Shown here in pieces: positions 8,638 to 24,624 of a stretch of 48,163 nucleotides of DNA; the stretch's first letter is position 1; every line of letters begins with the position of its first letter. The stretch is from assembly GCF_900218015.1 (NCBI RefSeq), contig NZ_UFQQ01000033.1, forward strand, positions 1-48,163, given 5' to 3'. The translations under genes were made by a program, and so were the position numbers. The stretch comes from Rhodopseudomonas pentothenatexigens. Lineage in GTDB: Bacteria; Pseudomonadota; Alphaproteobacteria; Rhizobiales; Xanthobacteraceae. The notes below the pieces were generated by a model that worked only from the letters and a program-made list of their open reading frames with translations, had not been told where the DNA came from and made no database searches.

Positions 8638-9528
8638 ATGTACCACGACGTCATTGTCATCGGCGGCTCCTATGCCGGAATGGCCGCCGCGCTCCAGCTC
8701 GTTCGTGCGCGCCGCAGCGTGCGGGTGATCGATGCGGGCCGGCGCCGCAACCGCTTCGCCGCGCATTCGCACGGCTTCCTGTCGCAGGACGGCGCCGATC
8801 CGGCGGCGATTGCTGCCACCGCGCGCCGGCAGCTCGAAGCCTACCCGACGCTGAGCTGGGTCGACGATACCGCGCACGCAGCGAGCGGCCGCAAAGACGC
8901 GTTCGTGGTCGACACCGGCGACGGCGCACGACACCACGCCCGGCGGCTGTTGTTCGCCACCGGCGTCTCCGACACGCTGCCGGCGATCGCAGGGCTGCAG
9001 GAGCGCTGGGGCTTCAGCGTGTTTCTCTGTCCGTATTGCCACGGCTACGAGCTCGACAAAGGCCGCATCGCAGTGATCGCCACCGGGCCGATGTCGCTGC
9101 ATCAGGCGCAGTTGCTGCCGGAATGGGGCGAGGTGACGCTGTTCACCAACGCCGCGGTGGTGCTCGACGACGCCGGGCGGGACGATCTGGCCGCGCGTGG
9201 CGTCACCATCGACGAGACGCCGGTCGCGCGGGTCGACGGCCACGCCGATGTCGTGCTGAGCGACGGAAGGACGCTGCCGTTCGCCGGCATCTTCACCACC
9301 AGCCGCAACGCGCCGGCGACGCCGATCGCACAAGCGCTGGGGTGCGCGCTCACCGAAACCCCGTTCGGCACCCAGATTCAAACCGATGACGGCAAGCAGA
9401 CCAGCGTGCCCGGTGCGTTCGCCTGCGGCGACGCGGCACGGGTGCCGCATTCGCTGTCGCTGGCGATCGCCGACGGGGCCTGGGCCGGCGCCGGCCTGCA
9501 CCGGTCGCTGGTCTGGCCGGAGGCATGA
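8638..9528 (+). CDS. Thioredoxin reductase-like FAD/NAD(P) oxidoreductase
   Basis: 296 residues. The N-terminus VIVIGGSYAGMAAAL is the FAD-binding GxGxxG-type motif, and a redox pair CPYC lies at Cys131 and Cys134, the position of the CxxC in thioredoxin reductase. The C-terminal FACGDAAR motif closes the FAD site. A clear central NADPH GxGxxA motif is not visible (VIATGPMSLHQA stands in its place), as in the thioredoxin reductase-like proteins that use other electron donors. Co-transcribed with the Rrf2 regulator (10-base gap, GGGAG binding site). Likely role: thiol/disulfide or peroxide stress; substrate unknown. Confidence 0.85.
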   Translation: MYHDVIVIGGSYAGMAAALQLVRARRSVRVIDAGRRRNRFAAHSHGFLSQDGADPAAIAATARRQLEAYPTLSWVDDTAHAASGRKDAFVVDTGDGARHHARRLLFATGVSDTLPAIAGLQERWGFSVFLCPYCHGYELDKGRIAVIATGPMSLHQAQLLPEWGEVTLFTNAAVVLDDAGRDDLAARGVTIDETPVARVDGHADVVLSDGRTLPFAGIFTTSRNAPATPIAQALGCALTETPFGTQIQTDDGKQTSVPGAFACGDAARVPHSLSLAIADGAWAGAGLHRSLVWPEA

Positions 9529-10173: not shown

Positions 10174-10382
10174 GGTCGTCTCCCTGATCGGCGCTTGGCT
10201 GCGCCTTGTGATGATCGATCTGTCCTAGCCCGGGACACCGTGCGGTGCAAAGCCGCGCGGTGAGAATTCCTGTGCGCGCTCTTCACGATTCGTGAAATTT
10301 CCGTAACCGTCGGGGGAAGTAACGATTTCGCAAGTAATCAAAGTTAGCGATTAGTAGCAGTTTGATCCGGAGGATGAGAGAC

Positions 10383-11342
10383 GTGGACGAGCATCGCAAC
10401 GAGCCCATCGGCGAACAGCAGACCGGCCCGGCCGCCGCGGCCGAAGGAGCGCAGTCCGCTGCGTCCCGGGACGACAGCTCGGCCGCGGACCACGCGACGC
10501 CGGCCAACTCGCACGCCGCCACAGACGCCGCCAAGCCGGACGCCGGTCAGTCGGAGGCCGATGCGGCAGCCGGCGGCAGCCGTCCGCGTCCCGGAACGGT
10601 GACGATCATGGCGCCGTCGCGCCGTGAGGATCTGTATCGGCATTGGGACGACGAAATCGAAGTCGAGGCGCCGGACGAGGCCAGCCAATCCGCCGCTCAC
10701 CGCTTCGGTTTGCGCAAGCTCGCGGCCGTCGCCGCCGCGGTGATTCTCGCGGCGATCGCCGGCGCGGTCGGTGGCGCGCTCGCCACCGCCGGGCTGTCGC
10801 AGCGGAGCGACGCCGACACCACCGCGGCGTCGGCGCAGGTCAAGACTCTTGACACGCAGGTCGCCCAGTTGCAGACCGAACTGTCGGCGCTCAAGGCGGA
10901 TCTCGATCGCGCCGCCAAGCAGAGTTCGGCGCAGCTCGGCAAGACGGCGGACCGGATCGAAAAGCTGGAAAAGGCGCAGGCCGAACCGGCGGCGAAGCTC
11001 GCCAAGCTGACCGAGACGGTCGAGAAGCTGCGCACCGCGCAGGCGCAACCGGCCGCAACGCCGGCACCGGCCAACGTCGCAGCCGTCGCCGCCAAGGACG
11101 TCACCGGCTCGATCGCGCCCAAGCCCGAGCCGGCGAAGTCGCAGCCGGGCCGGTTGCCGACGATCGATGGTTGGGTGCTGCGCGACGTCTATGACGGTGG
11201 CGCGGTGGTCGAAGGCCGCTCCGGCACCTACGAAGTCTATGCCGGTGACCCGCTCCCGGGTGTCGGCCGGGTCGATGCGATTCGCCGGCAGGACGGTCGC
11301 TGGGTGGTGGTCACCAGCCGCGGGCTGATCGTCTCGCGCTGA
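10383..11342 (+). CDS. Membrane-anchored coiled-coil protein of unknown function
   Basis: I chose the GTG at 10383 because GGAGG at 10369-10373 lies 9 bases before it; an in-frame ATG at 10374 would touch the binding site. The 319-residue product has a disordered Ala/Gly/acidic N-terminus (to about residue 75), one membrane segment rich in Ala (about 111-140), a heptad-like coiled coil with many Lys/Leu/Ala (about 150-230), an Ala/Pro linker, and a conserved-looking C-terminal domain of about 55 residues (GWVLRDVYDGGAVVEGRSG to the end). The topology suggests a cytoplasmic tail and a periplasmic coiled coil plus domain. I do not recognise a named family. A strong terminator follows. Confidence 0.8.
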   Translation: MDEHRNEPIGEQQTGPAAAAEGAQSAASRDDSSAADHATPANSHAATDAAKPDAGQSEADAAAGGSRPRPGTVTIMAPSRREDLYRHWDDEIEVEAPDEASQSAAHRFGLRKLAAVAAAVILAAIAGAVGGALATAGLSQRSDADTTAASAQVKTLDTQVAQLQTELSALKADLDRAAKQSSAQLGKTADRIEKLEKAQAEPAAKLAKLTETVEKLRTAQAQPAATPAPANVAAVAAKDVTGSIAPKPEPAKSQPGRLPTIDGWVLRDVYDGGAVVEGRSGTYEVYAGDPLPGVGRVDAIRRQDGRWVVVTSRGLIVSR

Positions 11343-11451: not shown

Positions 11452-12429
11452 TCACGCCCCGGCTCTGGCCCTGCTCGCGGCGATCTGCTGGAGCGCCCAG
11501 CGGGCGTTCTTGCGGACATCCGGATCGAGGTCGTCGGCGATCAGCACCAGATAAGGCTCGCCGTCGGGGGAGGCGATCTCGCCCAGCGCGGCGGCTGCTT
11601 CTTTCCGGAGATTGGCCTGTTCGTGGGTGACGCATTGGCCGATCGGCCGCACCGCCTGCAGCGCCTTGAGCCGTCCGAGGCTGCGGATCGCCTTGAGCCG
11701 TACCTGCCAGAACTCGTCGGCGAGGCGTCCGATCAGCGGCTCGATGGCAATCGCTCCGCGGGCGTTGAGACCGAGTGTTTCCGCCGCCATTTCGCGTACC
11801 ATCCAGTCGGCATCCTCGAGCGCGCGGACGATGGTTTCGGCGGCGATCTTCATGTGCGAGAACGCCAGCGCGCTCACCGCGGCGCGGCGGACATGCGGAT
11901 CGGGATCGCCGATCAGCGCCGTCAGCGCCGGGATCGATTCCTCGAGTTTGAGGAAGCCGATCACGCCGATCGCCTGCACCCGCACCGCGGCGTCGCCGTC
12001 CTGCAACGCTTCGAGCGCCGGCTTCAGCGTATCCTTGCGCCGCAGCTCCTTCAGCGCCCGCAGCGCGCCGCTGCGGACGAAGGCGTGGCCGTGTTTGACC
12101 AGCGGCAGGATCGCGTCGGCCGCCGCCGGGTCCTTGAACTCGGCGAGGCTGTCGGCCGCCGCCGCGGCGACGATGCGCTCCGGATCGACCAGCAGGCGAA
12201 CCAGCGCCTCGGCGGCCTCCGGTCCGTCGAACTCGCCGAGCGCCATCGCGGTCTGCTGCCGAACGCCGGCGTCGGGATCCGCCACCATGTTGGCGAGGTG
12301 GCCGACGGCCGCCGGATCGCCGGAATGGCCGAGCGCGATGATCGCGACCCGTCGCTCCGCCGGGTCTGCCGCCTGCAGGCGGTCGTCGGCGTCGTCGAGA
12401 TCGTCGTAGGATTCGAACGGGCTCGACAT
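11452..12429 (-). CDS. HEAT-repeat protein of the AprBA-like cluster
   Basis: 325 residues made of about nine HEAT/PBS-lyase-type repeats of some 31 residues, each with a pattern like D-P--V---A---L--L (for example DPAERRVAIIALGHSGDPAA, DPDPHVRRAAVSALAFS, DEFWQVRLKAIRSLGRLKAL). Such solenoids bind proteins or help insert cofactors, and E-Z type HEAT proteins also attach bilins. The start at 12429 has GAGGTGATC in front. It follows the ferredoxin gene with a 2-base gap, so it is the last gene of the flavoprotein-ferredoxin operon. I infer an assembly or scaffold role for that enzyme; no catalytic motif is seen. Confidence 0.85.
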   Translation of the reverse strand: MSSPFESYDDLDDADDRLQAADPAERRVAIIALGHSGDPAAVGHLANMVADPDAGVRQQTAMALGEFDGPEAAEALVRLLVDPERIVAAAAADSLAEFKDPAAADAILPLVKHGHAFVRSGALRALKELRRKDTLKPALEALQDGDAAVRVQAIGVIGFLKLEESIPALTALIGDPDPHVRRAAVSALAFSHMKIAAETIVRALEDADWMVREMAAETLGLNARGAIAIEPLIGRLADEFWQVRLKAIRSLGRLKALQAVRPIGQCVTHEQANLRKEAAAALGEIASPDGEPYLVLIADDLDPDVRKNARWALQQIAASRARAGA

Positions 12430-12431
12430 GA

Positions 12432-12665
12432 TCACCTCAACAGATAGGGGATGTTGACGGTGACCGCCCCGGTGGGGCAATCGGCTTCGCACGGCATGCA
12501 GTACCAGCATTCGTCGTAGGCCATGTAGGCCTTGCCGGTCATGTCGCTGATCCGCAGGACGTCGAGCGGGCAGACGTCGACGCAGACGGTGCACCCCTTG
12601 TCGGCGATGCACTTGGCGTCGTCGACGACGACCGGCACCGTAGTCTGATAACTGGCGAGAGGCAT
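12432..12665 (-). CDS. 2x[4Fe-4S] ferredoxin, AprB-like
   Basis: 77 residues. The first cluster motif is Cys19-x5-Cys25-x2-Cys28-x3-Cys32-Pro; the second is Cys53-x2-Cys56-x2-Cys59-x3-Cys63-Pro. The DECWYCMPCEADCPTGAV stretch and the C-x5-C spacing match the electron-transfer subunit (AprB) of APS reductase better than generic bacterial ferredoxin. It lacks the long C-terminal tail of true AprB (about 150 residues), which in that enzyme wraps around AprA. The gene lies 29 bases after the AprA-like flavoprotein gene, on the same strand, and 2 bases before the HEAT gene. Likely role: pass electrons between Fpr and the flavoprotein. Confidence 0.9.
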   Translation of the reverse strand: MPLASYQTTVPVVVDDAKCIADKGCTVCVDVCPLDVLRISDMTGKAYMAYDECWYCMPCEADCPTGAVTVNIPYLLR

Positions 12666-12694
12666 GTGTCCGTTCTCCTGGTTGGGTGTGGGCG

Positions 12695-14437
12695 TCAGGC
12701 GGTGGCGCGGATGCGCTGCTTGTCGTAGAGGTCCTTCTCCTCGTCGGCGATCGGCACGACGTAGGGCTCGACCGCCCGCTTCTCGCTGGTCATCTTGTCA
12801 TTCTGCTTGCTGAGCAGCGTGTGGCAGAACCAGTTCTCGTTGTCCTTGTCGGGGAAATCGGTGCGCCAGTGATACAGGCCCCACCGGCTCTCCTCGCGAT
12901 AAAGCGAGGCGTGCGCGGCCATGTCGGCGCAGTCCATGATCGACGCCGTTTCCAGCGCGCGCAGCAGTTCGTGCGAGTTGCGCGCCATCATCCGCTGCTC
13001 CATGTCGTCGCGGACCTCGGCGAGCCGGCGCATGCCGAGCTCGTACTTCCGCGTCACCTTCGGCGGCTGCAGATAGTCGTTGACCAGGCGCCGGGCCTTG
13101 TACTCGATCTGGTTCGGCGGGATGCCGTCCTCGCGCCGCGTCGGCGCCAGCACCCGGTCGCGCTCGCGCGCGACCTCGGCGGCGTCGATGTCGGCGAAAT
13201 CGTGGTTGTCGGCGAACTCCATCGCGTCGAGCCCGGCGAACGAGCCGTTGGTGAAGGCGCCGAGCATGTAGTTGTGCGGCACGCTGGCCATGTCGCCGGC
13301 GGCGTAGAGCCCCGGCACCGTGGTGCGCGCATTGTCGTCGACGAACACGCCGGAGGCGCTGTGGCCGCTGCACAGGCCGATCTCGGAGATGTGCATCTCG
13401 ATCGATTCCTGGCGATAGTCGATGCCGCGGCCCTGCTGGAACAGGCCGCGGGTCGGTCGCTCGACCTTGTGAAGAGTCGATTCGATTTCCTCGATGGTCT
13501 TGTCGTGCAAGTGCTTGAGCTGCAGGAACACCGGGCCCTTGCCGGACAGCAGCTCGTTGTAGAACTCCAGCATCATCTGGCCCGACCAGTAGTCGCACTC
13601 GATGAAGCGGCGGTCCTCGTTATTGGCGGTGTAGGCGCCGAACGGGCCGGCCACATAGGCGCAGGCGGGACCGTTGTAGTCCTTGATCAGCGGATTGATC
13701 TGATAGCACTCGAGATTGGCGAGTGCGGCGCCGGCGTGATACGCCATCGCGTAGCCATCGCCGGAATTGGCGGCGTTCTCGTAGGTGCCGAACATGTAGC
13801 CCGAGGTCGGCAGCCCGAGCCGGCCGGCGGCGCCGGTGCACAGGATCACCGCCTTGGCCTTGAACACCAGGAACTCGGCGGTGCGGGTGTTGACACTGAC
13901 CGCGCCGGCGATCCGGCCGTCGGCGCCCTTCAGCAGCCGCGTCGCCATGTAGCGATTGGAGATCAAGATGCGCGCCCGCCGCAACTGCCGGTACAGCGCC
14001 TTCTTGACGGTCTCGCCGTTCGGCATCGGCAGCACATAGGTGCCGATGTGGTGCACCTTCTTCACCGCATAATCGCCGTTCTCGTTCTTGAGAAAGCGGA
14101 TGCCGAAGCTGTCGAGTTCCTCGATGATCGAGTAGCAATTCTGGGCGTATTTGTAGACGGCCTTCTGATCGACGATGCCGTCGTTGGCGATGGTGATTTC
14201 CTTGGTGTACTGCTCCGGTGTGGCGTAGCCCGGGATCACCGCGTTGTTGAGGCCGTCCATCCCCATCGAGATCGCGCCGGAGCGCTTGACGTTGGCCTTT
14301 TCCAGAAGGACGACGTTCGCCTTCGGGTTCTTCATCTTGGCCTTCAAAGCGGCCATCGGACCGGCGGTGCCGCCGCCGATCACCAACACGTCGCACGATA
14401 CTTCCGACAGTCCGTCGACTATCTCATCCATCGCCAT
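12695..14437 (-). CDS. AprA-like / fumarate reductase-family flavoprotein
   Basis: 580 residues. FAD-binding GGGTAG at 21-26; KRSGAISMG at 51-59 occupies the place where SdhA/FrdA carry the His that binds FAD covalently, and no His is there, so FAD is non-covalent, as in AprA (APS reductase alpha). SEIGLCSGHSASG around His359 also resembles the AprA active-site region more than the HxxTMGG loop of fumarate reductase. The C-terminus RTDFPDKDNENW is shared by the superfamily. It is shorter than true AprA (about 640) and no sat, qmo or dsr gene is near. I call it an AprA relative of unknown substrate. Head of an operon with ferredoxin and HEAT genes; a GCAACTAATTGC-like site lies 68 bases upstream. 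Confidence 0.85.
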   Translation of the reverse strand: MAMDEIVDGLSEVSCDVLVIGGGTAGPMAALKAKMKNPKANVVLLEKANVKRSGAISMGMDGLNNAVIPGYATPEQYTKEITIANDGIVDQKAVYKYAQNCYSIIEELDSFGIRFLKNENGDYAVKKVHHIGTYVLPMPNGETVKKALYRQLRRARILISNRYMATRLLKGADGRIAGAVSVNTRTAEFLVFKAKAVILCTGAAGRLGLPTSGYMFGTYENAANSGDGYAMAYHAGAALANLECYQINPLIKDYNGPACAYVAGPFGAYTANNEDRRFIECDYWSGQMMLEFYNELLSGKGPVFLQLKHLHDKTIEEIESTLHKVERPTRGLFQQGRGIDYRQESIEMHISEIGLCSGHSASGVFVDDNARTTVPGLYAAGDMASVPHNYMLGAFTNGSFAGLDAMEFADNHDFADIDAAEVARERDRVLAPTRREDGIPPNQIEYKARRLVNDYLQPPKVTRKYELGMRRLAEVRDDMEQRMMARNSHELLRALETASIMDCADMAAHASLYREESRWGLYHWRTDFPDKDNENWFCHTLLSKQNDKMTSEKRAVEPYVVPIADEEKDLYDKQRIRATA

Positions 14438-14505
14438 CTTCTGCTCCTGGTTCCTCGGCGGACCGCCGCTGTGGAGCAGAGTTGTTCAGACGCGCGCCGG
14501 ACGAT

Positions 14506-14519
14506 AGCAATTAGTTGTC
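14506..14519 (-). promoter_or_regulatory. Putative cluster operator, copy 1 (AprA-like promoter)
   Basis: On the minus strand this reads GACAACTAATTGCT, 68 bases before the flavoprotein start codon. It shares CAACTAATTG with the site before fpr and CAACTAAT with the site before the ABC operon. The core is an imperfect palindrome, GCAA-N4-TTGC in its ideal form. The in-cluster Crp/Fnr regulator is the obvious candidate binder (inference). Confidence 0.5.
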
Positions 14520-14546
14520 GCCGGCGCGCGATTTCCGAGCGGGGTG

Positions 14547-15320
14547 TCAGCGCTCGACGAACGCCTTCTCGACCACGAAGTGGCCAGGCTCGCTGTGATT
14601 GCCTTCGCGGAAGCCGCGCTCGCTCAGCATCGCCGGCAGTTCGGCGAGCATCGCCGGGTTGCCGCACAGCATCACCCGGTCGGATTCGAGGTCGAGCCCG
14701 GACTGGCCGAGATCGTCGAACAACTGGCCCGACGCGATCAGATCGGTGACACGACCGCGGTTGCGGAACGGCTCGCGGGTCACGGTCGGGTAGTAGTGCA
14801 GTTTGTCGCGGATCAGGTCGCCGAGGAACTCGTGGCCGCGCAGGCCTTCGACCAGCTGCTCGCCATAGGCCAGTTCGGGAATCTGTCGGCAGCCGTGGAC
14901 CAGCACGATGGATTCGTAGAGATCGTAGATCTCGGGATCCTTGATCAGGCTGGCGAAAGGGGCCAGTCCGGTGCCGGTCGACAGCAGCAACAGCCGCTTG
15001 CCGGGAATCAGATTGCCGGCGATCAGCGTTCCGGTCGCCTTGCGCCCGACCAGGATCTGGTCGCCTTGCTTGATTTTCTGCAACCGTGATGTGAGCGGCC
15101 CGTCGGGCACCTTGATGCTGAAGAACTCCAGCTCTTCCTCATGGTTGGCGCTGGCCATGCTGTAGGCGCGCAGCAGCGGCCGGCCGTCGACCTCGAGGCC
15201 GATCATGGCGAACTGCCCGCTCTGGAACCGGAAACCCGGATCGCGCGTCGCGGTGAAACTGAACAGCGAGTCGGTCCAATGCCGGACCGACAACACCGTT
15301 TCGGTTTGGAATGCACTCAT
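14547..15320 (-). CDS. fpr: Ferredoxin/flavodoxin-NADP+ reductase (Fpr type)
   Basis: 257 residues from the ATG at 15320, the normal length of bacterial subclass I Fpr. FAD-binding RAYSMASANHEEELEFFS (R-x-Y-S), NADP-binding STGTGLAPFAS, and VMLCGNPAM are present, and the C-terminus VEKAFVER has the alphaproteobacterial Fpr ending. It moves electrons between NADPH and ferredoxin. Here it sits 109 bases upstream of the AprA-like operon on the same strand, so NADPH to Fpr to ferredoxin to flavoprotein is a complete chain, in either direction. GAGGAGAAGAGG precedes the start. The frame is open further upstream to 15416, but those residues are not Fpr-like and would cover the promoter. Confidence 0.92.
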   Translation of the reverse strand: MSAFQTETVLSVRHWTDSLFSFTATRDPGFRFQSGQFAMIGLEVDGRPLLRAYSMASANHEEELEFFSIKVPDGPLTSRLQKIKQGDQILVGRKATGTLIAGNLIPGKRLLLLSTGTGLAPFASLIKDPEIYDLYESIVLVHGCRQIPELAYGEQLVEGLRGHEFLGDLIRDKLHYYPTVTREPFRNRGRVTDLIASGQLFDDLGQSGLDLESDRVMLCGNPAMLAELPAMLSERGFREGNHSEPGHFVVEKAFVER

Positions 15321-15412
15321 CCTCTTCTCCTCAAGCGCAGGCGTTCCTGCGTCCGATGAGAGGATGTCGCTGATCTTGGCCCCGTTTCGCAATTTCGAAA
15401 TCGCGGTCGCCG

Positions 15413-15425
15413 TCAATTAGTTGCA
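15413..15425 (-). promoter_or_regulatory. Putative cluster operator, copy 2 (fpr promoter)
   Basis: Minus strand reads TGCAACTAATTGA, 92 bases upstream of the fpr ATG. Ten consecutive bases (CAACTAATTG) match copy 1 upstream of the flavoprotein gene. Confidence 0.5.
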
Positions 15426-15434
15426 AAATTTCCC
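15417..15434 (+). promoter_or_regulatory. Second shared promoter element, copy 1
   Basis: TTAGTTGCAAAATTTCCC here matches TTAGAAGCAAAATTGCCC at 16726-16743 in 15 of 18 positions. Both lie about 115-125 bases before plus-strand start codons (DUF971 at 15550, binding protein at 16867). It overlaps operator copy 2. AT-rich in a GC-rich genome, so it may be an UP-like or second protein-binding site. Confidence 0.35.
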
Positions 15435-15481
15435 GAAGAACTCCTCCAAAAGGCGCGGCGTGCTGTTTTTCCGCGGGTCTG

Positions 15482-15495
15482 AGCAATTTGTTGCT
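15482..15495 (+). promoter_or_regulatory. Putative cluster operator, copy 3 (DUF971 promoter)
   Basis: AGCAATTTGTTGCT is a dyad of AGCAA and TTGCT with a 4-base spacer, the most symmetric copy of the cluster motif, 54 bases before the DUF971 ATG. It fits GCAA-N4-TTGC. The 229-base gap between fpr and the DUF971 gene therefore carries two copies, one near each divergent gene. Confidence 0.5.
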
Positions 15496-15549
15496 AGGCC
15501 CGATGCGGCCTCGTGCCTAGCCTGGGGCCCTTGCGACAGGAGGGATCTC

Positions 15550-15840
15550 ATGGTGACAGTGCACGCTTCCGGCGAAGTCGAGGCCGATCTCGCGTCCTTG
15601 ACTCTGCAGAGCGCGGACGGCCGCACAGCCTCCCTGCCTGCCGAGCGGCTGCGGCTCGCCTGCAAATGCGCCCACTGCATACGGGCGCGGATCGACGGCC
15701 GTTTCCCGGCCGAGTTTCCCGGCGCGGCGATCGTTGCAGTCCGCGATCTCGGCTACGGACTCAACCTGCAGTTTTCCGACGGCCACGATCGCGGCATCTA
15801 TCCGCACGCGTATCTGGCGTCGCTGATCGACGCCGACTGA
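15550..15840 (+). CDS. DUF971 (GBBH-like N-terminal domain) protein
   Basis: 96 residues forming a lone DUF971 domain, the small fold found at the N-terminus of gamma-butyrobetaine hydroxylase and in some Fe-S assembly proteins. Marks are ADGRTASLPAERLRLACKCAHC and IVAVRDLGYGLNLQFSDGHDRGIYPHAYL. The CxCxxC triplet (Cys38, 40, 43) with His75-80 region residues could bind Zn or Fe; in GBBH the equivalent site binds Zn. The start at 15550 has CAGGAGGG 8 bases upstream. It is divergent from fpr and 81 bases before the Crp/Fnr gene. The role is unknown; cofactor delivery to the Fe-S flavoenzyme is a guess from context. Confidence 0.85.
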   Translation: MVTVHASGEVEADLASLTLQSADGRTASLPAERLRLACKCAHCIRARIDGRFPAEFPGAAIVAVRDLGYGLNLQFSDGHDRGIYPHAYLASLIDAD

Positions 15841-15921
15841 GGCGGCACCGCTCATCGCGATTGCTGGCACGAACATTGCTCCGCGTGTGGTCGGTCTGAT
15901 CAACGCGAGAGGCAAATCATC

Positions 15922-16701
15922 GTGCTGCAGGCAGCCAAATCGGCAGCGGACTCGACGTCCACCCTTGGCCCGGCGCGTGTCGGAACGGGCCGGTCGCTTC
16001 TTCTCACCGAAAGCCACCAACCCACCGCCGGACCGCCTTCGCTGATCGACCGGCTCAGCCTGCGCGAGCGCGAGTTGGTCCTCAGGCAGGGCCGCCGCAA
16101 AGTCCTCAATCGCGGCCAGACGCTGTTCAGCCAGGGCGCGCGGCACGACGGCATCTTCCTGATCGAGAGCGGCCGAATCCGGGTGTTCTACACCTCGCCG
16201 CAGGGTCGCGAGATCACGCTGGCCTACTGGCACATCGGCAATTTCGTCGGCGGCCCGGAAGTGTTCGACACCGGCGTGCATCAATGGTCCGGCGTCGCCG
16301 CCACCAATGCGGCCGTCGTGCATCTGCCGGGGAGGGAACTACGCTCGCTGGTTGCCGAGGTTCCGAATCTCGCTATCGGCCTGATCGAGGGATTGAGCTT
16401 CAAGGGCAAGTGTTACTCGGCGCTCGCGCAGATGCTGGGAACGCGCTCGATCACCCAGCGGCTGGCGCATTTGCTGCTGCAACTGGTCGACCTTTACGGA
16501 GTGGATGATGCCGACGGCAAGGTGATTGCAGTCGCATTCACCCACGCCGACATCGCCCACCTGGTCGGTGCGACACGGCAATGGGTCACGATCAGTCTGC
16601 GGCGGATGCAGGAAAAGCGCATCGTCCAGACCCGGCGCTCGCAGATCGTGGTGTGCCGGCCCGACATCCTCGAGGAGATGCGCGGCCACGCCACCGACTA
16701 A
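15922..16701 (+). CDS. Crp/Fnr family transcriptional regulator
   Basis: 259 residues from a GTG start (binding site GAGAGG about 10 bases away). An N-terminal extension of about 40 residues precedes the cyclic-nucleotide-type beta-roll (LFSQGARHDGIFLIESGRIRVFYTSPQGREITLAYW, about 70-110), a long dimer helix (SITQRLAHLLLQLVDLYG) and a winged helix with recognition helix ATRQWVTISLRRMQEKRIV (about 213-231). There is no Fnr-like N-terminal Cys cluster; the effector pocket is not of the CRP cAMP type by eye. Placed between DUF971 and the ABC importer, it is the likely regulator of the shared operator sites, possibly sensing a small redox or sulfur/nitrogen signal. Confidence 0.88.
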   Translation: MLQAAKSAADSTSTLGPARVGTGRSLLLTESHQPTAGPPSLIDRLSLRERELVLRQGRRKVLNRGQTLFSQGARHDGIFLIESGRIRVFYTSPQGREITLAYWHIGNFVGGPEVFDTGVHQWSGVAATNAAVVHLPGRELRSLVAEVPNLAIGLIEGLSFKGKCYSALAQMLGTRSITQRLAHLLLQLVDLYGVDDADGKVIAVAFTHADIAHLVGATRQWVTISLRRMQEKRIVQTRRSQIVVCRPDILEEMRGHATD

Positions 16702-16725
16702 TCCCTCTGCCTATGCAAATGGCTC

Positions 16726-16743
16726 TTAGAAGCAAAATTGCCC
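16726..16743 (+). promoter_or_regulatory. Second shared promoter element, copy 2
   Basis: TTAGAAGCAAAATTGCCC, 15 of 18 bases identical to the element at 15417-15434, and 123 bases before the binding-protein start. It contains GCAAAATTGC, itself a small dyad. Confidence 0.35.
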
Positions 16744-16769
16744 AAGGAGTACGCAACCAGCGTTTTGGC

Positions 16770-16781
16770 GGCAACTAATCC
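16770..16781 (+). promoter_or_regulatory. Putative cluster operator, copy 4 (ABC operon promoter)
   Basis: GGCAACTAATCC lies 85 bases before the binding-protein ATG. It shares GCAACTAAT with the fpr copy and CAACTAAT with the flavoprotein copy, in the same direction relative to transcription, but its right half (CC in place of TG) is degraded. Confidence 0.45.
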
Positions 16782-16866
16782 ACCCGATGGCCCAGTCCGG
16801 ATTTGCTCTAAAGGACCGGGCTACCAATCATGGCGACATCAGCCATCCAAACGAACGGGGATGAGA

Positions 16867-18282
16867 ATGGTCAGCCGCTTTCAGAAACTTCTCGTATCGG
16901 TCACCTGCCTGACTTGGATCTCGGCCCTGCCGGCCGCAGCAGAAACGATCACCATCGGGATCGGCACCCAGGACACCACGACCAACACGGTGACCGCCGG
17001 CACGGTCATTCGGGAGCTTCACCTGCTGGAGAAATATCTCCCCACGACCGGCAAATACGCCAATGTGAAGTTCGAGATCGAGTGGCAGAACTTCACGTCC
17101 GGTCCGCCGGTGACCAACGGGATGATGGCGAACAAGCTGCAGTTCGGCATCATGGGCGACTATCCGCTGATCGTGAACGGCTTCACTTTTCAGAACAATC
17201 CCGAGAGCAAGAGCCGGCTGATCTCGATCGCCGCCTACAGCATGGCGGGATCCGGCAACGGCATCGTCGTCCACAAGGACTCGCCCTACTATGAGCTGTC
17301 CGACCTGAAGGGCAAGCTGGTCAGCGTTCCGTTCGGTTCGGCGGCGCACGGCATGGTGCTGAAGGCGCTGCAGGATCGCAAATATCCGTCCGACTTCTTC
17401 CAGCTGGTGAGCCAGAGCCCGGAAGTCGGCTCGACCAATCTGCAGGAAAAGAAGATCGACGCCCACGCCGACTTCGTCCCATTCGCCGAGCTGCTGCCGT
17501 TCCGCGGCTACGCCCGCAAAATCTTCGACGGCGTCGAAACCAACCTGCCGACCTTCCATGGCACGGTGGTCCGTACCGATTTCGCCGAAAAATATCCCGA
17601 AGTGGTCGTCGCCTACATCAAGGCGGAGATCGCCGCCAATAACTGGCTTCGCCAGGATCCGAAGGTCGCCGCCGAAAAGATCCAGGATTGGACCGGGATC
17701 AACAAGGAGGTGGTGTACATTTTCCTCGGACCGAGCGGCAACATGACCACCGACCCGACCATCAAGCCGGCGCTGATCGACGCCGCCGCGACCGACGTCA
17801 AGGTGCTGCAGAGCCTCGGGCGGATGAAGGAGTTCGATCCGAAAACGTGGGTCGACGACAGCTATGTCCGCAAGGCCTATGCGGAGCTGAAGCTGGACTA
17901 CGACAAGGATCTCGCCTCGACCGCCAACTACGAGATTTCCGGTCAGGACAAGTTCTGCAACAAGCCGATCGGCGAGCCGCGCAAGGCCGGCGAGGTCTGG
18001 GTCGATGGCGAAGGCATCCTGCCGTTCTCGAGCACGCTGTGCACGCTCGGCGCCTATGCGGACTTCAAGGCCAAGAGCAAGAAGATCAACGTCGCCTACG
18101 TGTTCGACGCTTCCCGCGGCATCAAGCTGTTCGCCGACCAGGCGTTCTACGCCGCCGGCAAGGGCGAGATCGTGCCGTTCCTGCTGAAGAAGGACGCCGA
18201 GGCCTACGCCGCCAAGGTCAGCGGCAAGGTCGTCGGCTTCGACGACGCACTGAAGCTGGCGGTGGCGGGAGACAAGACGTGA
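16867..18282 (+). CDS. NitT/TauT-type ABC substrate-binding protein fused to a NosL-like domain
   Basis: 471 residues; usual members of this family have about 330. A signal peptide (cleaved after LPAAA, about residue 24) leads to a periplasmic binding domain (about 25-345) of the SsuA/TauA/NrtA class, with SDLKGKLVSVPFGSAAHG as the typical segment. From about residue 360 comes an extra domain that resembles NosL, the copper-binding nitrous oxide reductase accessory lipoprotein: AYVFDASRG, then DQAFYAAG, VPFLLKKDAEAYA and GKVVGFDDA follow the NosL order. The NosL CxxCGM metal motif is not kept; only scattered Cys (FCNKP, TLCTLG) remain. ATG at 16867 is preferred over 16861 because GGGGAT gives proper spacing. 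First gene of the importer operon; substrate unknown. Confidence 0.85.
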   Translation: MVSRFQKLLVSVTCLTWISALPAAAETITIGIGTQDTTTNTVTAGTVIRELHLLEKYLPTTGKYANVKFEIEWQNFTSGPPVTNGMMANKLQFGIMGDYPLIVNGFTFQNNPESKSRLISIAAYSMAGSGNGIVVHKDSPYYELSDLKGKLVSVPFGSAAHGMVLKALQDRKYPSDFFQLVSQSPEVGSTNLQEKKIDAHADFVPFAELLPFRGYARKIFDGVETNLPTFHGTVVRTDFAEKYPEVVVAYIKAEIAANNWLRQDPKVAAEKIQDWTGINKEVVYIFLGPSGNMTTDPTIKPALIDAAATDVKVLQSLGRMKEFDPKTWVDDSYVRKAYAELKLDYDKDLASTANYEISGQDKFCNKPIGEPRKAGEVWVDGEGILPFSSTLCTLGAYADFKAKSKKINVAYVFDASRGIKLFADQAFYAAGKGEIVPFLLKKDAEAYAAKVSGKVVGFDDALKLAVAGDKT

Positions 18283-19166
18283 GCAGTCCCGCCCTGATGA
18301 CGTCGCGCGACCGGATGGCGGCGGCCGCCGCCCCGGTCGCCCCACGCGAAGCCGGCCCGCCGGCTTTCGCAACGCGCGCCTCGCGCTGGTACCGGCTCAA
18401 CCAGAACAGGCTGCGCGCCGGATTGATCGGCATCGTGTCGCTGCTGCTGTTTCTTCTGGCGTGGCATCTGCTGACGACCTACCGGGTCGTGATGTTTGTG
18501 AAGTTCACCAACGTCCCGACGCCGCTCGCGGTGTACGAGAGCTTCACCCGCGCGATGCACGATCCGAAATTCCTGATGCACGTGCTGCTGAGCTGCCGCC
18601 GGATCTTCTTCGGTTTCGCGCTGGCGGCGATCGTCGGGGTGCCGCTCGGCCTGATCATGGGACGCTTTCGCCTGGTGCACGAGTTCGTGTTTCCGGTCGC
18701 CGAGGTGATGCGGCCGATTCCGGCGATCGCCTGGGTGCCGATGGCGATCATGCTGTGGCCGACCAACGAGCAGAGCATCGTGTTCATCACCTTCATCGGG
18801 GCGTTCTTTCCGATCCTGGTCAACACGCTGCACGGCATGACGCTGGTCGATCCGGTGCTGGTGCGGGCCGCCAAATGTCTCGGCGCCCGCGAGGCGTCGA
18901 TCTTCCGCGAGGTGTATTTCCCGGCGGCGCTGCCGCACATCTTCACCGGACTGACCGTGGGGATGGGCGTCGCCTGGGTGTCGCTGATCGCCGCCGAGAT
19001 GATCTCGGGACAGTTCGGCATCGGTTACTTCACCTGGGAAGCCTACTCGCTGGTGCAGTATCCCGACATCGCGCTCGGCATGATCGCAATCGGCGTGCTC
19101 GGGCTCGGCTCCAGCCTGCTGATCCGCTCGGCCGGCACACTGGTGATGCCATGGAGGCTACGATGA
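18279..19166 (+). CDS. ABC importer permease (NitT/TauT, SsuC-like)
   Basis: 295 residues with about six membrane segments. The EAA loop that docks on the ATPase reads VRAAKCLGAREASIFREVYFPAALPHIFTG, with the conserved Gly. The GTG at 18279 overlaps the binding-protein stop (GTGA), giving translational coupling, with GGCGGGAGA upstream; an ATG at 18297 is a possible alternative. The first 40 residues are an Ala/Arg-rich cytoplasmic tail. It works with the binding protein and the ATPase encoded next, importing a small anion such as a sulfonate or a related solute by family analogy. Confidence 0.92.
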   Translation: MSSPALMTSRDRMAAAAAPVAPREAGPPAFATRASRWYRLNQNRLRAGLIGIVSLLLFLLAWHLLTTYRVVMFVKFTNVPTPLAVYESFTRAMHDPKFLMHVLLSCRRIFFGFALAAIVGVPLGLIMGRFRLVHEFVFPVAEVMRPIPAIAWVPMAIMLWPTNEQSIVFITFIGAFFPILVNTLHGMTLVDPVLVRAAKCLGAREASIFREVYFPAALPHIFTGLTVGMGVAWVSLIAAEMISGQFGIGYFTWEAYSLVQYPDIALGMIAIGVLGLGSSLLIRSAGTLVMPWRLR

Positions 19167-20035
19167 GCCAGTCTGCTTCCGAGGCCCGTCAGGGCCGGAT
19201 CGAGGTCCGCGATTTCGCGCTCCGCTACGAGACCATCGACGGCTCGGTGGAGGCGGTCACCGACACCCAGATCCATGTCGAGCCCGGCGAGTTCGTGTCG
19301 ATCGTCGGCCCGTCCGGCTGCGGCAAGTCCACGCTGCTGAATGCGGTCGCCGGCTTCCTGAAGCCGACCAGTGGCGTCGTCACCGTCGACGGCGAGAAGG
19401 TGACCGGGCCGAGCGCAGAGCGCGGCATGGTGTTCCAGCAATACTCGCTGTTTCCATGGAAGACCGTGCGCGAGAACGTCGAGTTCGGCCTGAAGATGCG
19501 CGGCATGTCCCGCTTCGAGCGCGAACGGGCGGCGCGCACGCTGCTCGGCCTCGCCGGGCTCGAGGCGTTCGAGAAGCACTATCCCGAGCGGCTGTCCGGC
19601 GGCATGAAGCAGCGCGTCGGCATCGTTCGTGCACTGGCGACCGGGCCGAAGGTGCTGCTGCTCGACGAGCCGTTCGGCGCGCTCGACGCCCAGACCCGGA
19701 TCATCATGCAGCAGATCCTCACCAACATGTGGCAGCGGCTGAAGATCTCGGTGCTGTTCGTCACTCACGACATCGACGAGGCGATCTTCCTGTCGGACCG
19801 GGTGTATTGCATGACGGCGCGGCCCGGCTCGATCAAGGCGGAGATCCGAATCCCATTGGAGCGGCCGCGGCAGCAGTCGATGATGATGTCGTCGGAATTC
19901 CTGGCGCTGCGGCGCGGATTGATGTCGCTGATCCGCGAGGAGAGCCTGAAGGCGATGGGCGGCGAGATCACCGATCTCGGCATGCAGGGGCTCAGCATCG
20001 AGCTGCAGGGCCATTCGCTGCCGGAGGTGCTTTAG
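19163..20035 (+). CDS. ABC importer ATPase (NitT/TauT, SsuB-like)
   Basis: 290 residues. Walker A GPSGCGKST (49-57), Q-loop VFQQYSLFPWKT, signature LSGGMKQR, Walker B LLLDEPFGALD and the switch His in VTHDIDEA are all intact. The ATG at 19163 overlaps the permease stop as ATGA, and GGAGG lies 6 bases upstream; an ATG at 19151 is less well placed. The C-terminal 40 residues after RPRQQ are a short tail seen in many SsuB/TauB proteins. Last gene of the three-gene importer operon. Confidence 0.93.
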   Translation: MSQSASEARQGRIEVRDFALRYETIDGSVEAVTDTQIHVEPGEFVSIVGPSGCGKSTLLNAVAGFLKPTSGVVTVDGEKVTGPSAERGMVFQQYSLFPWKTVRENVEFGLKMRGMSRFERERAARTLLGLAGLEAFEKHYPERLSGGMKQRVGIVRALATGPKVLLLDEPFGALDAQTRIIMQQILTNMWQRLKISVLFVTHDIDEAIFLSDRVYCMTARPGSIKAEIRIPLERPRQQSMMMSSEFLALRRGLMSLIREESLKAMGGEITDLGMQGLSIELQGHSLPEVL

Positions 20036-20061: not shown

Positions 20062-20094
20062 GGAGCCGGCCCGTCGAGCAAGCTCGGCGGCTCC
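20062..20094. terminator. Hairpin between convergent genes
   Basis: GGAGCCG at 20062-20068 pairs with CGGCTCC at 20088-20094, and an inner CGAGC/GCTCG stem closes on AA. It sits in the 58-base gap between the ABC ATPase and the convergent CoA-transferase gene. No T-run on either side, so the assignment is moderate. Confidence 0.45.
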
Positions 20095-21302
20095 TAGCCG
20101 ACGGCGCCGGAGGCGCGCAGCGCCTTGATGGCGGCGTCATCGTAGCCTGCGCTGCGCAGCACTTCGTCGCTGTGCTCGCCGATGCCCGGCGGCTTGCGCG
20201 GCCGCGTCTTGGTGCTGCCTTCGATCCAGATCGGGCTGTTGATGGTCAGCGTAGTGTCGTTCTCGAACGGCACCAGCACTTCGTTCTCGATCAACTGCTG
20301 GTCGGTGGTGATATCGTCGAGAATGCCAACGACGCCGAACACGATGCCGGTGCCGTCCAGCGCCTTGCGCCAGTCGGCGAGGTCGCGGGTGGCGAAAGTC
20401 TCGTCGAAGATGCCGATCAGTTCGATCGAGCGGGCGTGACGGTCCGCCTTGGTGGCGAAGCGCGGATCGTCGGTCAGATCCTCGCGGCCGAGACACTTCG
20501 TCAGAATCGGCCACTGCTTCTCTTCGTTGAGCAGCGACAGGATCAGCCAGCGGCCGTCGCGGCAGCGATAGTGGTTGGCCACCGCGTTGAGCGCGCGTTC
20601 GCGCGGCCGCCGCGGCTGGAACTCGGCGCCGACCAGCTTCGCCTGCGCCAGCACGCTGGTCGACCACAGCCCGTTGGCCATCAGGTTCGACTTCACCTCG
20701 CTGCCTTTGCCGGTGCGCTCGCGCTTGTACAAAGCGGTGACGATCGCGCCGAACAGCGACATCGCGCAGGGATGGTCGCCCATGCCGGCGACCGATCGCG
20801 CCGGGGTGGAGTCTTCGTCGGCCCGCACCAGGTCCATCATGCCCGAACGCGCCCACCAGGCATTGCTGTCGAAGCCTGGCTTGTTGGCTTCCGCGCCGCG
20901 TTCGCCGTAGCCGGTGAAGCTCGCATAGATCAGCCGCTCGTTCAGCGGCGCTAGGTCGGCATACGACACGCCGAGCCGCGCCCGCACCGGTGGCGGGAAG
21001 TTGGTGATGAACACGTCGGCCTCGGCGACCAGCTTGCGCAGCACCTCCTTGCCCTCTGGTTTGGCGAGGTCGAGGGCGAGGCTGCGCTTGTTGCGGGCCT
21101 CCAGCATCCACGCGTAGTTGCGGTCGCTGATCGGATAGCCCGGCAGGTTCGGCAGGTTGCGATAGGGATCGCCGGCACCCGGCGGTTCGATCTTGATGAC
21201 GTCGGCGCCGAAATCGGACAGCACGGTCGCGGCCGCCGGTGCAGCGATGAAACTCGCGCAATCGAGCACCTTGAGGCCGCTGAAGATGCCGTTGTCGTCC
21301 AT
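20094..21302 (-). CDS. CoA-transferase family III (CaiB/BaiF)
   Basis: 402 residues, the family length. N-terminal LKVLDCASFIAAPAAATVLSDFGADVIKIEPPGAGDPYR is the classic CaiB/BaiF opening, and NKRSLALDLAKPEGKEVLRKLVAEADVFITNF follows. The Asp of MMDLVRA (about residue 173) is placed as the catalytic carboxylate that forms the CoA-anhydride intermediate. Family members swap CoA between carboxylic acids such as oxalate/formate, carnitine or bile acids. Its acceptor is not evident. GGGAG lies 9 bases before the ATG. It is on the same strand as putA, 166 bases downstream of it, so co-transcription is possible. Confidence 0.88.
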   Translation of the reverse strand: MDDNGIFSGLKVLDCASFIAAPAAATVLSDFGADVIKIEPPGAGDPYRNLPNLPGYPISDRNYAWMLEARNKRSLALDLAKPEGKEVLRKLVAEADVFITNFPPPVRARLGVSYADLAPLNERLIYASFTGYGERGAEANKPGFDSNAWWARSGMMDLVRADEDSTPARSVAGMGDHPCAMSLFGAIVTALYKRERTGKGSEVKSNLMANGLWSTSVLAQAKLVGAEFQPRRPRERALNAVANHYRCRDGRWLILSLLNEEKQWPILTKCLGREDLTDDPRFATKADRHARSIELIGIFDETFATRDLADWRKALDGTGIVFGVVGILDDITTDQQLIENEVLVPFENDTTLTINSPIWIEGSTKTRPRKPPGIGEHSDEVLRSAGYDDAAIKALRASGAVG

Positions 21303-21468: not shown

Positions 21469-24400
21469 CTAGTCGCCGTCCGTCAGCAGAGCGGCATTGC
21501 CACCGGCGGCTGCGGTGTTGATCGACACCATCTGTTCCAGCGCGAAGCGCGGCAGATAGTGCGGCCCGCCGGCTTTCGGCCCTGTGCCGGACAGGCCGGA
21601 GCCGCCGAACGGCTGCACTCCGACGACGGCGCCGACGATGTTGCGGTTGACATAGATGTTGCCGGTCGGCAGCCGCGCGATCACCCGTGCGATCGTGTCG
21701 TCGATCCGCGACTGCACGCCGAGCGTGAGCGCGTAGCCTGTCCCTGCGATGTCGCCGAGCAGATTGTCGAACTGCGTCGCCTTGTAACGCACCACATGCA
21801 GGATCGGGCCGAACACTTCCTCGGTGAGCTGCGAGGCACGGCTGAGCTCGAAGACGTGCGGCGCGACGAAGTTGCCACTGGCTGGTGCGGTGCCGGCGAA
21901 GTGCAGCCGCGCCGCGCGCGTCATCGCCGCGATATGGGCGTCGAGCCTGGCCTTCGCCTCTGCGTCGATCACCGGTCCGACATGCGTCGCCGGATCGCGC
22001 GGATCGCCTATTCGCAGTTCCCTGGCCGCGCCGGCGATCATCGCGATGACACGGTCCGCAACGTCCGCCTGCACGCACAAGAGCCGCAGCGCTGAGCAGC
22101 GCTGGCCCGCGGAGCGAAACGCGGAGGCGATCACGTCGTCGGCGACCTGCTCGGGCAGTGCGGTGGCGTCGACGATCATGGCGTTGATGCCGCCGGTCTC
22201 GGCGATCAACGGCACGATCGGACCGTCCTTGGCGGCGAGCGTGCGGTTGATCGTCCGCGCCACCTCGGTCGAGCCGGTGAAGACGACGCCGGCGACGTCG
22301 GGTTGCTCGACCAGCGTCGCGCCGATACTGCCGTCGCCCTGCACCAGATGCAGCGCCGTGCGCGGCACGCCGGCTTCGTGCAGCAGGCGGACCGCAAGAT
22401 CGGCGATCACCGGCGTCTGCTCGGCGGGCTTGGCGACCACCGCGTTGCCGGCGATCAGCGCCGCCGTGACCTGGCCGAGGAAGATCGCAAGCGGAAAATT
22501 CCACGGGCTGATCGCCACGAACACGCCGCGACCGCGCAAGCCGAGCGTATTGCGTTCGCCGGTCGGGCCGGGCAGGGCGAGCGGCTCGCCGAACAGCTGC
22601 CGGCCTTCGCTGGCGTAGTAGCGGCAGTAGTCGATCGCTTCGCGCACTTCCGCCACGCAATCGTCGAGCGTCTTGCCGCCCTCGTCTTGCAGGAGGGCGA
22701 CGAATGCCGCACGGCGCTGCTCCAGCAGATCGCCGGCGCGCTCCAGGATGGCCGCGCGGTGATCGACCGGGGTCAGGCTCCACGACTCGAAACCGCCGCG
22801 CGCGGCAGTGATCGCCGCTCCGACCTGCGCGGGCGTCGCGGCGGCGATGGTCGGCAGCGGCCGGCGCGCGGTCTCGATCTCGCCGAGCAGTTCGGCGAGC
22901 GCAGCACGATCGCCGAACTCGATGCCGCGCGAATTGAGCCGCTGCGGCTGATACAGATCGCACGGCAACGGGATCGCCGGGTTTCGCGCGGTCTCAGACC
23001 GGCCGATCAGTATGGCAGGTCGTGTCAGCAGCTCGGCGATCGGCACGTTGTCGTCGCCGGCCTGCGCGACGAAGGACGAGTTGGCGCCGTTCTCCAAGAG
23101 CCGCCGCACCAGATAGGCCAAGAGATCGCGATGGCCGCCGACCGGCGCGTAGATCCGGCACACCGCCTGCGGATGCTCGGCGAGCAGCCGCGCGTAAAGC
23201 GCTTCGCCCATGCCGTGCAGCCGCTGAAATTCGTAGCCGTCGCTGCCGTCGGAGAGTTCCAGAATGGTCGCGACCGTCAGCGCGTTGTGGCTGGCGAATT
23301 GCGGGAACAGTCGCGGCCGCAGCGACAGCAGCTTACCGGCACAGTTCAGGTAGTTGAGATCGGTCATCGGCTTCCTGGTGAACACCGGGTAGTCGACGAG
23401 GCCGCGTTCCTGCGCGCGCTTGATCTCGGTGTCCCAATAGGCGCCCTTCACCAGCCGCAGCATCACACGCCGATCGAGTGCACGCGCAAGGTCGGCGACA
23501 TGATCGATCACCGCAGCGGCGCGCTTCTGATACGCCTGCACGGCGAGGCCGTAGCCGTCCCAGCCGCTGAGCGATGGATCTGCGAAGCAGGCGGCGAACA
23601 CCTCGAGCGACAGTTCGAGCCGGTCGGCTTCCTCGGCGTCGACCGTGAAAGCGAGGTCGTGGCTCCTGGCGAGCCGCGCCAGCTCAAGCAGCCGCGGAGT
23701 CAGCTCACGCATCACGCGGTCGTGGCTGATCGCTTCGAATCGCGGATGCAGCGCCGACAGCTTCACCGAGATGCCCGGCCGCGCCGGCAGCGCGGCGTTT
23801 CTGGCGGCGCGGCCGATCGCCGTGATGGCGTCGGCGTAGGACTGATAGTAGCGCTCGGCGTCCTCGGCCGTGCGCGCGCCTTCGCCGAGCATGTCGTAGG
23901 AGTAGCGCGAGCCTTCGCCGGCGTGCGCCTCAGCGCGGGCGAGCGCGGCCGCGATGGTTTCGCCGAGGACGAAGTGATTGCCGATCAGCCGCATCGCCTG
24001 TCGGGTCGCCGCGCGTACCGCCGGAGCACCGATCCGCCTGGTCAGCGCCGCCAGCGTGCCTTGCGGCGTCTCGCCGGCGTGAACCAGGCGCGCCGACAGG
24101 CCGAGCGCCCAGGCCGAGGCGTTCACGAGCAGCGCGTCGGACTTGATGCGGTGATGCGCGAAATCGCCCTGGCCGAGCTTGTCCTCGATGAAGGCATCGG
24201 CCGTCGCCGCATCCGGAACCCGCAGCAGCGCTTCGGCCAGCACCATTAGGGCCAGCCCTTCCTTGGTCGACAGTGCAAATTCGCGCAGCATCGCGTCGAC
24301 GCCGCCGAAAGCGTGCTCACTGCCCCGGATCGCAGAGATCAGTTCGGTGGCGAGGCGGTCGATCCGCGCTTCGCGATCGGGCGGCAGCGCGGCGGTCGCC

Positions 24401-24477: not shown

Positions 24478-24624
24478 GGCGATCGGTCCCCGAAGCCGGC
24501 CCGGAAGGTGTGGACGACCTGCATCAGCGTGGCCGACAAATGCGGTGCCGCCCGACTCCCATATTGGCACGACCATGCCGCCACGCTAGCGTCACCTCGT
24601 GAGGATCGCGGCCGAGGAATGCGA

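Follow-up and report, generated by a model that had tools for sequence, protein, structure and literature searches.

In the 48,163-nucleotide stretch of Rhodopseudomonas pentothenatexigens DNA analyzed here (contig NZ_UFQQ01000033.1 of assembly GCF_900218015.1; the whole stretch is called the window), a cluster of nine genes at positions 11452 to 20035 encodes one co-inherited system that combines redox proteins with an importer. Its core consists of an AprA-like flavoprotein, a 2[4Fe-4S] ferredoxin with a CW site, a HEAT-repeat protein, a DUF971 protein, and an ATP-binding cassette (ABC) importer of the NitT/TauT type, whereas a Crp/Fnr-family regulator (Crp) and an Fpr-type ferredoxin-NADP reductase (Fpr) are optional parts. 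The module occurs in root-nodule bacteria, Burkholderiales, actinobacteria, cyanobacteria, and others, and also on plasmids. We give about even chances to the reading that the system takes up a sulfonate-type compound, from which the AprA-like flavoenzyme would release sulfite in a ferredoxin-linked reaction.

Co-inheritance and composition

The original prediction held that the nine genes, with no unrelated gene among them, form a redox-transport system whose members should stay together in other genomes. Indeed, we confirmed all nine genes at their place with no further gene between them, and the core proved to be kept together across genomes. In a phylum sample of 398 genomes, the AprA-like gene (E ≤ 1e-80) was found in 21 and the substrate-binding protein (SBP; E ≤ 1e-60) in 20, all of which are among those 21; G464 has the AprA-like gene without the SBP. 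The SBP was present in 20/21 AprA-like-positive versus 0/377 other genomes (Fisher p = 8e-33, uncorrected for relatedness) and, outside the family of the window, in 12 of 13 AprA-like-positive genomes. In a family sample of 149 genomes (AprA-like at E ≤ 1e-100), the two genes were found in 27 and 29 genomes, respectively, and both in 26; that is, the SBP was present in 26/27 AprA-like-positive versus 3/122 other genomes. G130 has the flavoprotein only, and G099, G117, and G132 have SBP matches only, all three of them truncated.

Taking both samples together, the SBP is present in 41 of 43 AprA-positive genomes. The distance between the two genes is at most 10 kb in 31 of them; 6 more have the genes on separate contigs, and in 4 (G060, G073, G094, and G176) a single contig bears both at a great distance from each other. 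Since both genes are kept even where they are far apart on one contig, more than linkage holds them together. Furthermore, the complete set of nine was found in 73 of 80 named loci, which are the best 80 of 156 passing loci found with the SBP as the query and which, coming almost entirely from Bradyrhizobium and close kin, are not independent. The seven incomplete ones are L034, L109, and L111 (short loci without the AprA-like gene), L054 (HEAT gene cut), and L062, L064, and L095 (without Fpr).

We also compared 20 regions around divergent AprA-like genes, and 19 loci drawn from the 54 matching records, some of them chromosome-sized, of a plasmid collection. Each gene was searched for with a single fixed query, so that a gene not found may simply have been missed, and other ABC systems may account for some of the ATPase matches. 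In the divergent regions, the counts were 20 for the ferredoxin, 20 for HEAT, 15 for DUF971 (20 at E ≤ 0.01), 15 for the SBP, 15 for the permease, 17 for the ATPase, 7 for Crp, and 3 for Fpr. The 19 plasmid-collection loci gave the ferredoxin in 19, HEAT in 18 plus one fusion, the SBP in 16, the permease in 18, the ATPase in 17, DUF971 in 9 (the L156 record annotates one more), Crp in 6, and Fpr in 2. Fpr was found in 74 of the 80 named loci and is rare in the divergent ones. Thus, of the parts originally listed, the core stands, whereas Fpr and Crp do not hold as general parts.

The regulators vary with lineage: Rhizobiales have Crp, many other lineages GntR-UTRA, and cyanobacteria a LysR protein to which an NMT1-like domain is fused. 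A LysR regulator adjoins the operon in two cyanobacterial loci (L179:6646-8661 and L183:6388-8424); in L183 it carries a fused NMT1-like substrate-binding domain, and in L179 it has the same length. Such a fused regulator is possibly a one-piece sensor for the imported solute. A count of palindromes upstream of the SBP and AprA-like genes, made in search of a regulator binding site, gave nothing clear; the top counts upstream of the AprA-like gene (45/159 and 43/159) may lie in coding or shared-ancestry sequence.

PRK13800 is the sister model of PRK08275, the family of the flavoprotein, and the HEAT protein of the window gives a match to its C-terminal portion. A Tsukamurella plasmid protein of 893 amino acids scores 1568 bits with this model, and its C-terminal part matches the HEAT protein of the window at 29% over 274 residues (E 1e-5). 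Because this PRK13800-type protein joins both, the flavoprotein and the HEAT protein are natural fusion partners.

Residues of the flavoprotein and its ferredoxin

The flavoprotein clearly belongs to NCBIfam NF006131/PRK08275, a family with a generic name only. Its best solved relative is the alpha subunit of 3'-phosphoadenosine 5'-phosphosulfate (PAPS) reductase (8a8o; 214 bits), followed by A. fulgidus AprA (139 bits), and it stays below the curated cut-offs for alpha subunits (aprA TIGR02061, 165.9 versus 641.75 bits; NF005331, 279.8 versus 557). The cluster resembles AprBA and the PAPS reductase of Methanothermococcus in fold family and in the two-cluster ferredoxin partner, but differs from them by a dedicated importer, the HEAT protein, and replaced substrate residues. 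The earlier description of the enzyme as AprBA-like is therefore retained for the fold and the ferredoxin pairing and dropped for the substrate residues of adenosine 5'-phosphosulfate (APS) reductase.

These replacements were read from a 25-row alignment that spans Alphaproteobacteria to cyanobacteria and Tsukamurella. Asn74 of AprA is kept as Asn64. Arg265 and Trp234 of A. fulgidus AprA, which we take to be substrate-site residues, are replaced by Leu250 and Tyr219, and Gln145, named as a substrate-site residue (PMC10322725), is replaced by Val135, the last pair lying beside gaps; all three replacements are invariant in the 25 rows. To judge from the alignment, the 25 flavoproteins probably share one substrate class.

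In another reading, the flavoprotein acts as a fumarate reductase or dehydrogenase on a C-C bond of the solute, and sulfite is released later in a separate step. The protein does belong to the fumarate reductase superfamily, and sulfonates can lose sulfite after redox activation. However, the His of QFHP in SdhA, which together with the Arg of GANRLGG we take to be catalytic, aligns to Asn248, and the GANRLGG stretch has no counterpart; a further Arg, near SdhA 286, lies outside the aligned stretch. Besides, the partner of the flavoprotein is a ferredoxin with two 4Fe-4S clusters and not an SdhB-like protein. We consider this reading quite unlikely, and the flavoprotein is, by its residues, neither an APS/PAPS reductase nor a fumarate reductase.

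The ferredoxin has eight Cys residues, and its gene adjoins that of the flavoprotein, as an AprBA-type pairing requires. Of 159 fetched loci, among which some genes are represented twice, 158 have a CW[YF]C site. The Trp next to a cluster Cys is common to the ferredoxin of the window and AprB, which we assume to carry it, and Trp42 of the PAPS reductase ferredoxin subunit presumably stands in the CW motif as well. Trp42 has been proposed to take part in electron transfer, and in the mechanism described for PAPS reductase the flavin N5 attacks the sulfur to give a flavin-sulfite intermediate (PMC10322725).

Importer, neighboring genes, and known systems

In a structure model of the SBP (predicted local distance difference test [pLDDT] score, 88.3), TauA and SsuA take ranks 1 to 8 among Protein Data Bank folds (Foldseek). 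The four sequence matches are all sulfonate binders, namely, TauA, two SsuA entries, and 3e4r, an SsuA deposited as a nitrate transport protein. The SBP is about 150 amino acids longer than TauA and carries a C-terminal NosL-like domain, the NosL match of which is weak (22.9 bits; cut-off, 24). The proposed SBP-NosL fusion was upheld as to this domain; no Cys or Met of it is conserved over 13 SBPs, and a NosL copper site was therefore rejected.

The same domain enters a reading of the cluster as an organometal or metalloid uptake and reduction system, with Sao-like ABC parts, an HgcB-like ferredoxin, and a NosL-like domain with the MerB fold. NosL-like domains share their fold with MerB, and among NCBIfam models the ATPase scores best with SaoA, the permease with SaoP, and the ferredoxin with HgcB. 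However, these scores (263/360, 149/295, and 36/99, respectively, as score/cut-off) are all well under the cut-offs, the lack of conserved Cys or Met speaks against the reading, and a metal-efflux gene (chrA) lies near the cluster in only 1 of 18 annotated loci. We regard it as highly improbable.

The original prediction noted that no known pathway accompanies the genes. This holds for the nine genes, which share a NitT/TauT ABC importer with the Ssu and Tau systems but, unlike them, include no SsuD-type monooxygenase, TauD dioxygenase, or Xsc; it does not hold for the relatives, in which TauE- and TauZ-type sulfite/sulfate exporters and organosulfur genes neighbor the cluster. YeiH (PF03601), which we take to belong to the family of TauZ, is present in 54 of the 80 named loci, and in L043 it stands next to the ATPase gene. 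On three cyanobacterial plasmids, which come from two genera, the operon is followed by genes for both YeiH and TauE/SafE; on a Nostoc plasmid, neither YeiH nor TauE was present in the stretch seen. TauE/SafE also lies next to the HEAT gene in Rhodopseudomonas rhenobacensis and before the GntR gene in Aquabacterium. TauE and TauZ are described as the sulfite and sulfate exporters of taurine degradation (PMC5320631). Together with the TauA- and SsuA-like fold of the SBP, these exporter neighbors in relatives give the strongest hint at what the system does.

Besides exporters, a nearby SsuA-type importer with a flavin mononucleotide-dependent monooxygenase was seen in a Cupriavidus locus, 3-mercaptopropionate dioxygenase and rhodanese in a Paraburkholderia locus, and a TauD-family dioxygenase with sulfate/sulfonate importers in a Sinorhizobium locus. 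Because exporters and organosulfur genes lie beside the cluster in relatives, sulfo-compounds appear likelier substrates than N-oxides, cyanate, or thiocyanate. Amidases, 50 to 57% mutually identical, occur near the cluster in three lineages, i.e., a genus of the window's family, Nostoc, and Methylocystis (L141:3275-4714, L142, L157:17017-18417, and L180:12761-14131), which may hint at an amide-bearing substrate.

A count of PF03601 genes also speaks for sulfite release. Among the 29 AprA-positive genomes (of 43) in which 35 copies were counted, 6, representing 4 genera, have one no more than 10 kb from the gene of the AprA-like protein or the SBP, compared with about 0.25 expected under a generous 40-kb target. 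This count is partly circular and serves more as an illustration than as a test, since the family was chosen once cyanobacteria and Bradyrhizobium had shown it next to the cluster, and two of the remaining three genera had come to light beforehand as well. In G145, which had not been seen beforehand, the exporter gene is 5 kb from that of the SBP, and the flavoprotein gene is on another contig.

Several observations weigh against a sulfonate-type substrate and sulfite release. In 23 of the 29 genomes, no PF03601 gene lies within 10 kb; these include the window's own genome, which has a single copy, situated on a different contig. Within the window, the cluster has no exporter gene as a neighbor. 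TauE/SafE may also export other anions, sulfamate having been proposed (PMC10413263). As for the importer, the nitrate/bicarbonate binders NrtA (rank 14) and CmpA (rank 42) are among the fold matches of the SBP, and the SBP, permease, and ATPase are under every NCBIfam cut-off listed. Furthermore, with Leu250 at the position of AprA Arg265 in 25/25 rows, a sulfo group would bind differently or elsewhere, and the structure model of the AprA-like protein is too poor for active-site geometry (pLDDT, 61.7).

Finally, 4 of 18 annotated plasmid-collection loci carry a gene for an oxygenase, or for a protein resembling one, in the vicinity of the cluster. The products are luciferase-like monooxygenases (Cupriavidus and Paraburkholderia largidicola), a Rieske-domain protein (P. 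sprentiae), and a TauD/TfdA dioxygenase (Sinorhizobium chiapasense). Such neighbors would fit a reading in which the flavoprotein and ferredoxin are a mere electron chain for a separate desulfonating oxygenase, as proposed for AsfAB with Ssu; according to the literature, AsfA and AsfB form a reductase/ferredoxin chain that serves the oxygenolytic desulfonation of aromatic compounds (PMC4267179, PMC2864759). However, the four oxygenases belong to three different families, and the 14 other annotated loci have none at the same position. In the 20 divergent regions, whose neighbors are not all annotated, no non-core gene cluster except the GntR regulator is common to more than 5. In addition, the invariant pocket of the flavoprotein over 25 divergent rows looks like a substrate site. 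Thus, we hold a mere electron chain to be unlikely.

The nearest characterized analogue is nonetheless AsfAB arylsulfonate desulfurization, known from Pseudomonas putida S-313 (asfRABC) and Cupriavidus metallidurans (AsfA/AsfB). Aromatic desulfonation is described as needing asfRABC, which comprises an SBP, an ABC transporter, a reductase/ferredoxin, and a LysR regulator, and asfA mutants lose arylsulfonate use (PMC4267179). In C. metallidurans, AsfA/AsfB are given as Rmet_4334/5 (PMC2864759), and our candidate for them was picked out solely through interpolation of locus-tag positions. With acx (Rmet_4104-07) and a sigma-factor gene taken by order for rpoJ as the two reference points, Rmet_4334/5 would fall at about 924 kb; the candidate pair lies at about 928 kb. 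Among 15 PF00890 matches on the replicon, the surroundings of three (790 to 930 kb) were viewed, one of which is a flavoprotein-ferredoxin pair. This candidate, a 549-amino-acid fumarate-reductase-type flavoprotein with a 111-amino-acid two-cluster ferredoxin near an SBP, an ATPase, and a permease, resembles the cluster in that both place a flavoprotein of the fumarate reductase superfamily and a 2[4Fe-4S] ferredoxin beside these importer parts.

In the comparison, which covered the C. metallidurans candidates, the flavoprotein of the cluster shares about 25% identity (BLAST) with the AsfA candidate and the ferredoxin 31% with the AsfB candidate. The AsfA candidate is a distant homologue (99% probability in a profile comparison) without most of the invariant pocket, the AsfB candidate is without the CW site, and no HEAT or DUF971 match was found in the 14-kb candidate locus. 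The LysR regulator described for Asf (PMC4267179) is a further difference. An identification of the cluster with asfABC was rejected, because the asfAB-bearing C. metallidurans replicon, which the plasmid collection contains, has no match at E ≤ 1e-50, all 54 matching records being listed. The cluster thus parallels Asf in its general mode of action but is distinct from the C. metallidurans system, and the claim that it matches no characterized operon survives with Asf as a distant analogue only. No description of the cluster was found in the literature searched, most subscription journals being outside the search.

Proposed mechanism, gene layout, and flanks

We propose that the SBP, permease, and ATPase import a small sulfo-compound, R-SO3-, whose sulfur would be bound to C, N, or S. 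The AprA-like subunit, carrying flavin adenine dinucleotide (FAD), would pair with the 2[4Fe-4S] ferredoxin in a cytoplasmic AprBA-like complex, which electrons would reach here from NADPH via Fpr and elsewhere from other donors. The flavoenzyme would then cleave the bond to the sulfo group, for instance by way of an adduct at flavin N5, the kind of intermediate proposed for APS and PAPS reductases, and the resulting sulfite would be assimilated or exported. The HEAT protein may be a dedicated subunit or scaffold, and DUF971 (perhaps Mrp/NBP35 in cyanobacteria) may help Fe-S cluster maturation. An Mrp/NBP35 ATPase gene follows the HEAT gene on four cyanobacterial plasmids, where DUF971 was not found; DUF971 was also not found in L153, L158, L159, L180, and L182, where no Mrp was seen. 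Because DUF971 is part of HCF101, the plant Mrp-type Fe-S carrier, the two might tentatively be read as alternative Fe-S maturation factors.

A more specific form of this proposal is possible but doubtful: an oxygen-independent, ferredoxin-driven reductive desulfonase that would use an APS-reductase fold to cleave an unactivated C-S (or N-S) bond via a flavin-sulfite adduct, with a HEAT subunit and an Fe-S maturation factor of its own. Sulfonates and sulfate esters are described as major forms of organic sulfur in soil (PMC4267179), and the desulfonation routes for sulfur supply in the literature consulted use the oxygenases SsuD and TauD (PMC4267179, PMC5320631). Desulfonation by an iron-sulfur flavoenzyme, if true, would be new chemistry, and a large family that so far has no other name than "fumarate reductase/succinate dehydrogenase flavoprotein subunit" would acquire a function. 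The finding may likewise be relevant to whether the distantly related AsfA is an electron carrier or a desulfonating enzyme.

The gene layout is given in Table 1. The open reading frame (ORF) at 11452-12612 over-extends the HEAT gene and was corrected to the separate ferredoxin and HEAT genes of the table. The ends of the Fpr, DUF971, SBP, permease, and ATPase genes were placed by start codon, ribosome-site-like sequence, and homologues; the family searches of the window's proteins were run with slightly different gene ends.

Table 1. Genes of the redox and importer cluster, with positions in the window
Gene product	Position	Strand	Basis
HEAT-repeat protein, 325 amino acids	11452..12429	-	HEAT_2, 179 bits; fused to flavoprotein in PRK13800-type proteins
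2[4Fe-4S] ferredoxin, 77 amino acids, AprB-like, CWYC site	12432..12665	-	Sequence; aprB, 32 bits, far under cut-off of 135.65
AprA-like FAD flavoprotein, 580 amino acids (PRK08275 family)	12695..14437	-	NF006131, 1050 bits, cut-off 587; 25-row alignment
Fpr-type ferredoxin-NADP reductase, optional part	14547..15320	-	NF008178, 151.6 bits, under cut-off of 390
DUF971 (GBBH-like_N) protein, 96 amino acids	15550..15840	+	PF06155, 54.4 bits
Crp/Fnr-family regulator, optional part	15922..16701	+	PF00027 and PF13545
NitT/TauT-type SBP with C-terminal NosL-like domain	16861..18282	+	SsuA_fam, 113 bits, cut-off 163.5; model pLDDT 88.3; closest folds TauA and SsuA
ABC permease	18279..19166	+	PF00528, 89.6 bits
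ABC ATPase	19163..20035	+	PF00005, 119 bits

The cluster is followed in the window by genes for a family III coenzyme A (CoA)-transferase (20094-21302) and PutA, of proline utilization (21469-24576). Upstream lies a thioredoxin-reductase-like flavoprotein (Pyr_redox_2; 8638-9528), of which the 80 named loci show no counterpart next to the cluster. When five flanking genes (CoA-transferase, PutA, the ORF at 10362-11342, glutathione S-transferase, and the thioredoxin-reductase-like gene) were compared with these loci, the single match was PutA, at 50%, in L034. The ORF at 10362-11342 also adjoins the HEAT gene in the near-identical G108 (L006). Since the flanking genes are nearly unmatched in the named loci and this ORF is kept in G108, the cluster borders are sharp outside the closest kin. 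A search of the window's own genome for Fer4_5 (PF12801) gave nothing useful.

Further genes stand beside the cluster in relatives. FdxA ferredoxin and then Fpr are encoded downstream of the importer in L184:16371-17502 (Methylobacterium radiotolerans) and L129:16839-18157; this pair might serve the system as an additional electron carrier. In L143:17745-18395, the gene after that of the ABC ATPase encodes a cytochrome c, and a gene of the same sequence cluster stands at that place in L144:2302-2925, from another genus of the window's family. In Nostoc edaphicum (L157:8986-15141), five genes (two HAD hydrolases, a methyltransferase, GNAT, and VOC) separate the flavoprotein gene from the ferredoxin gene.

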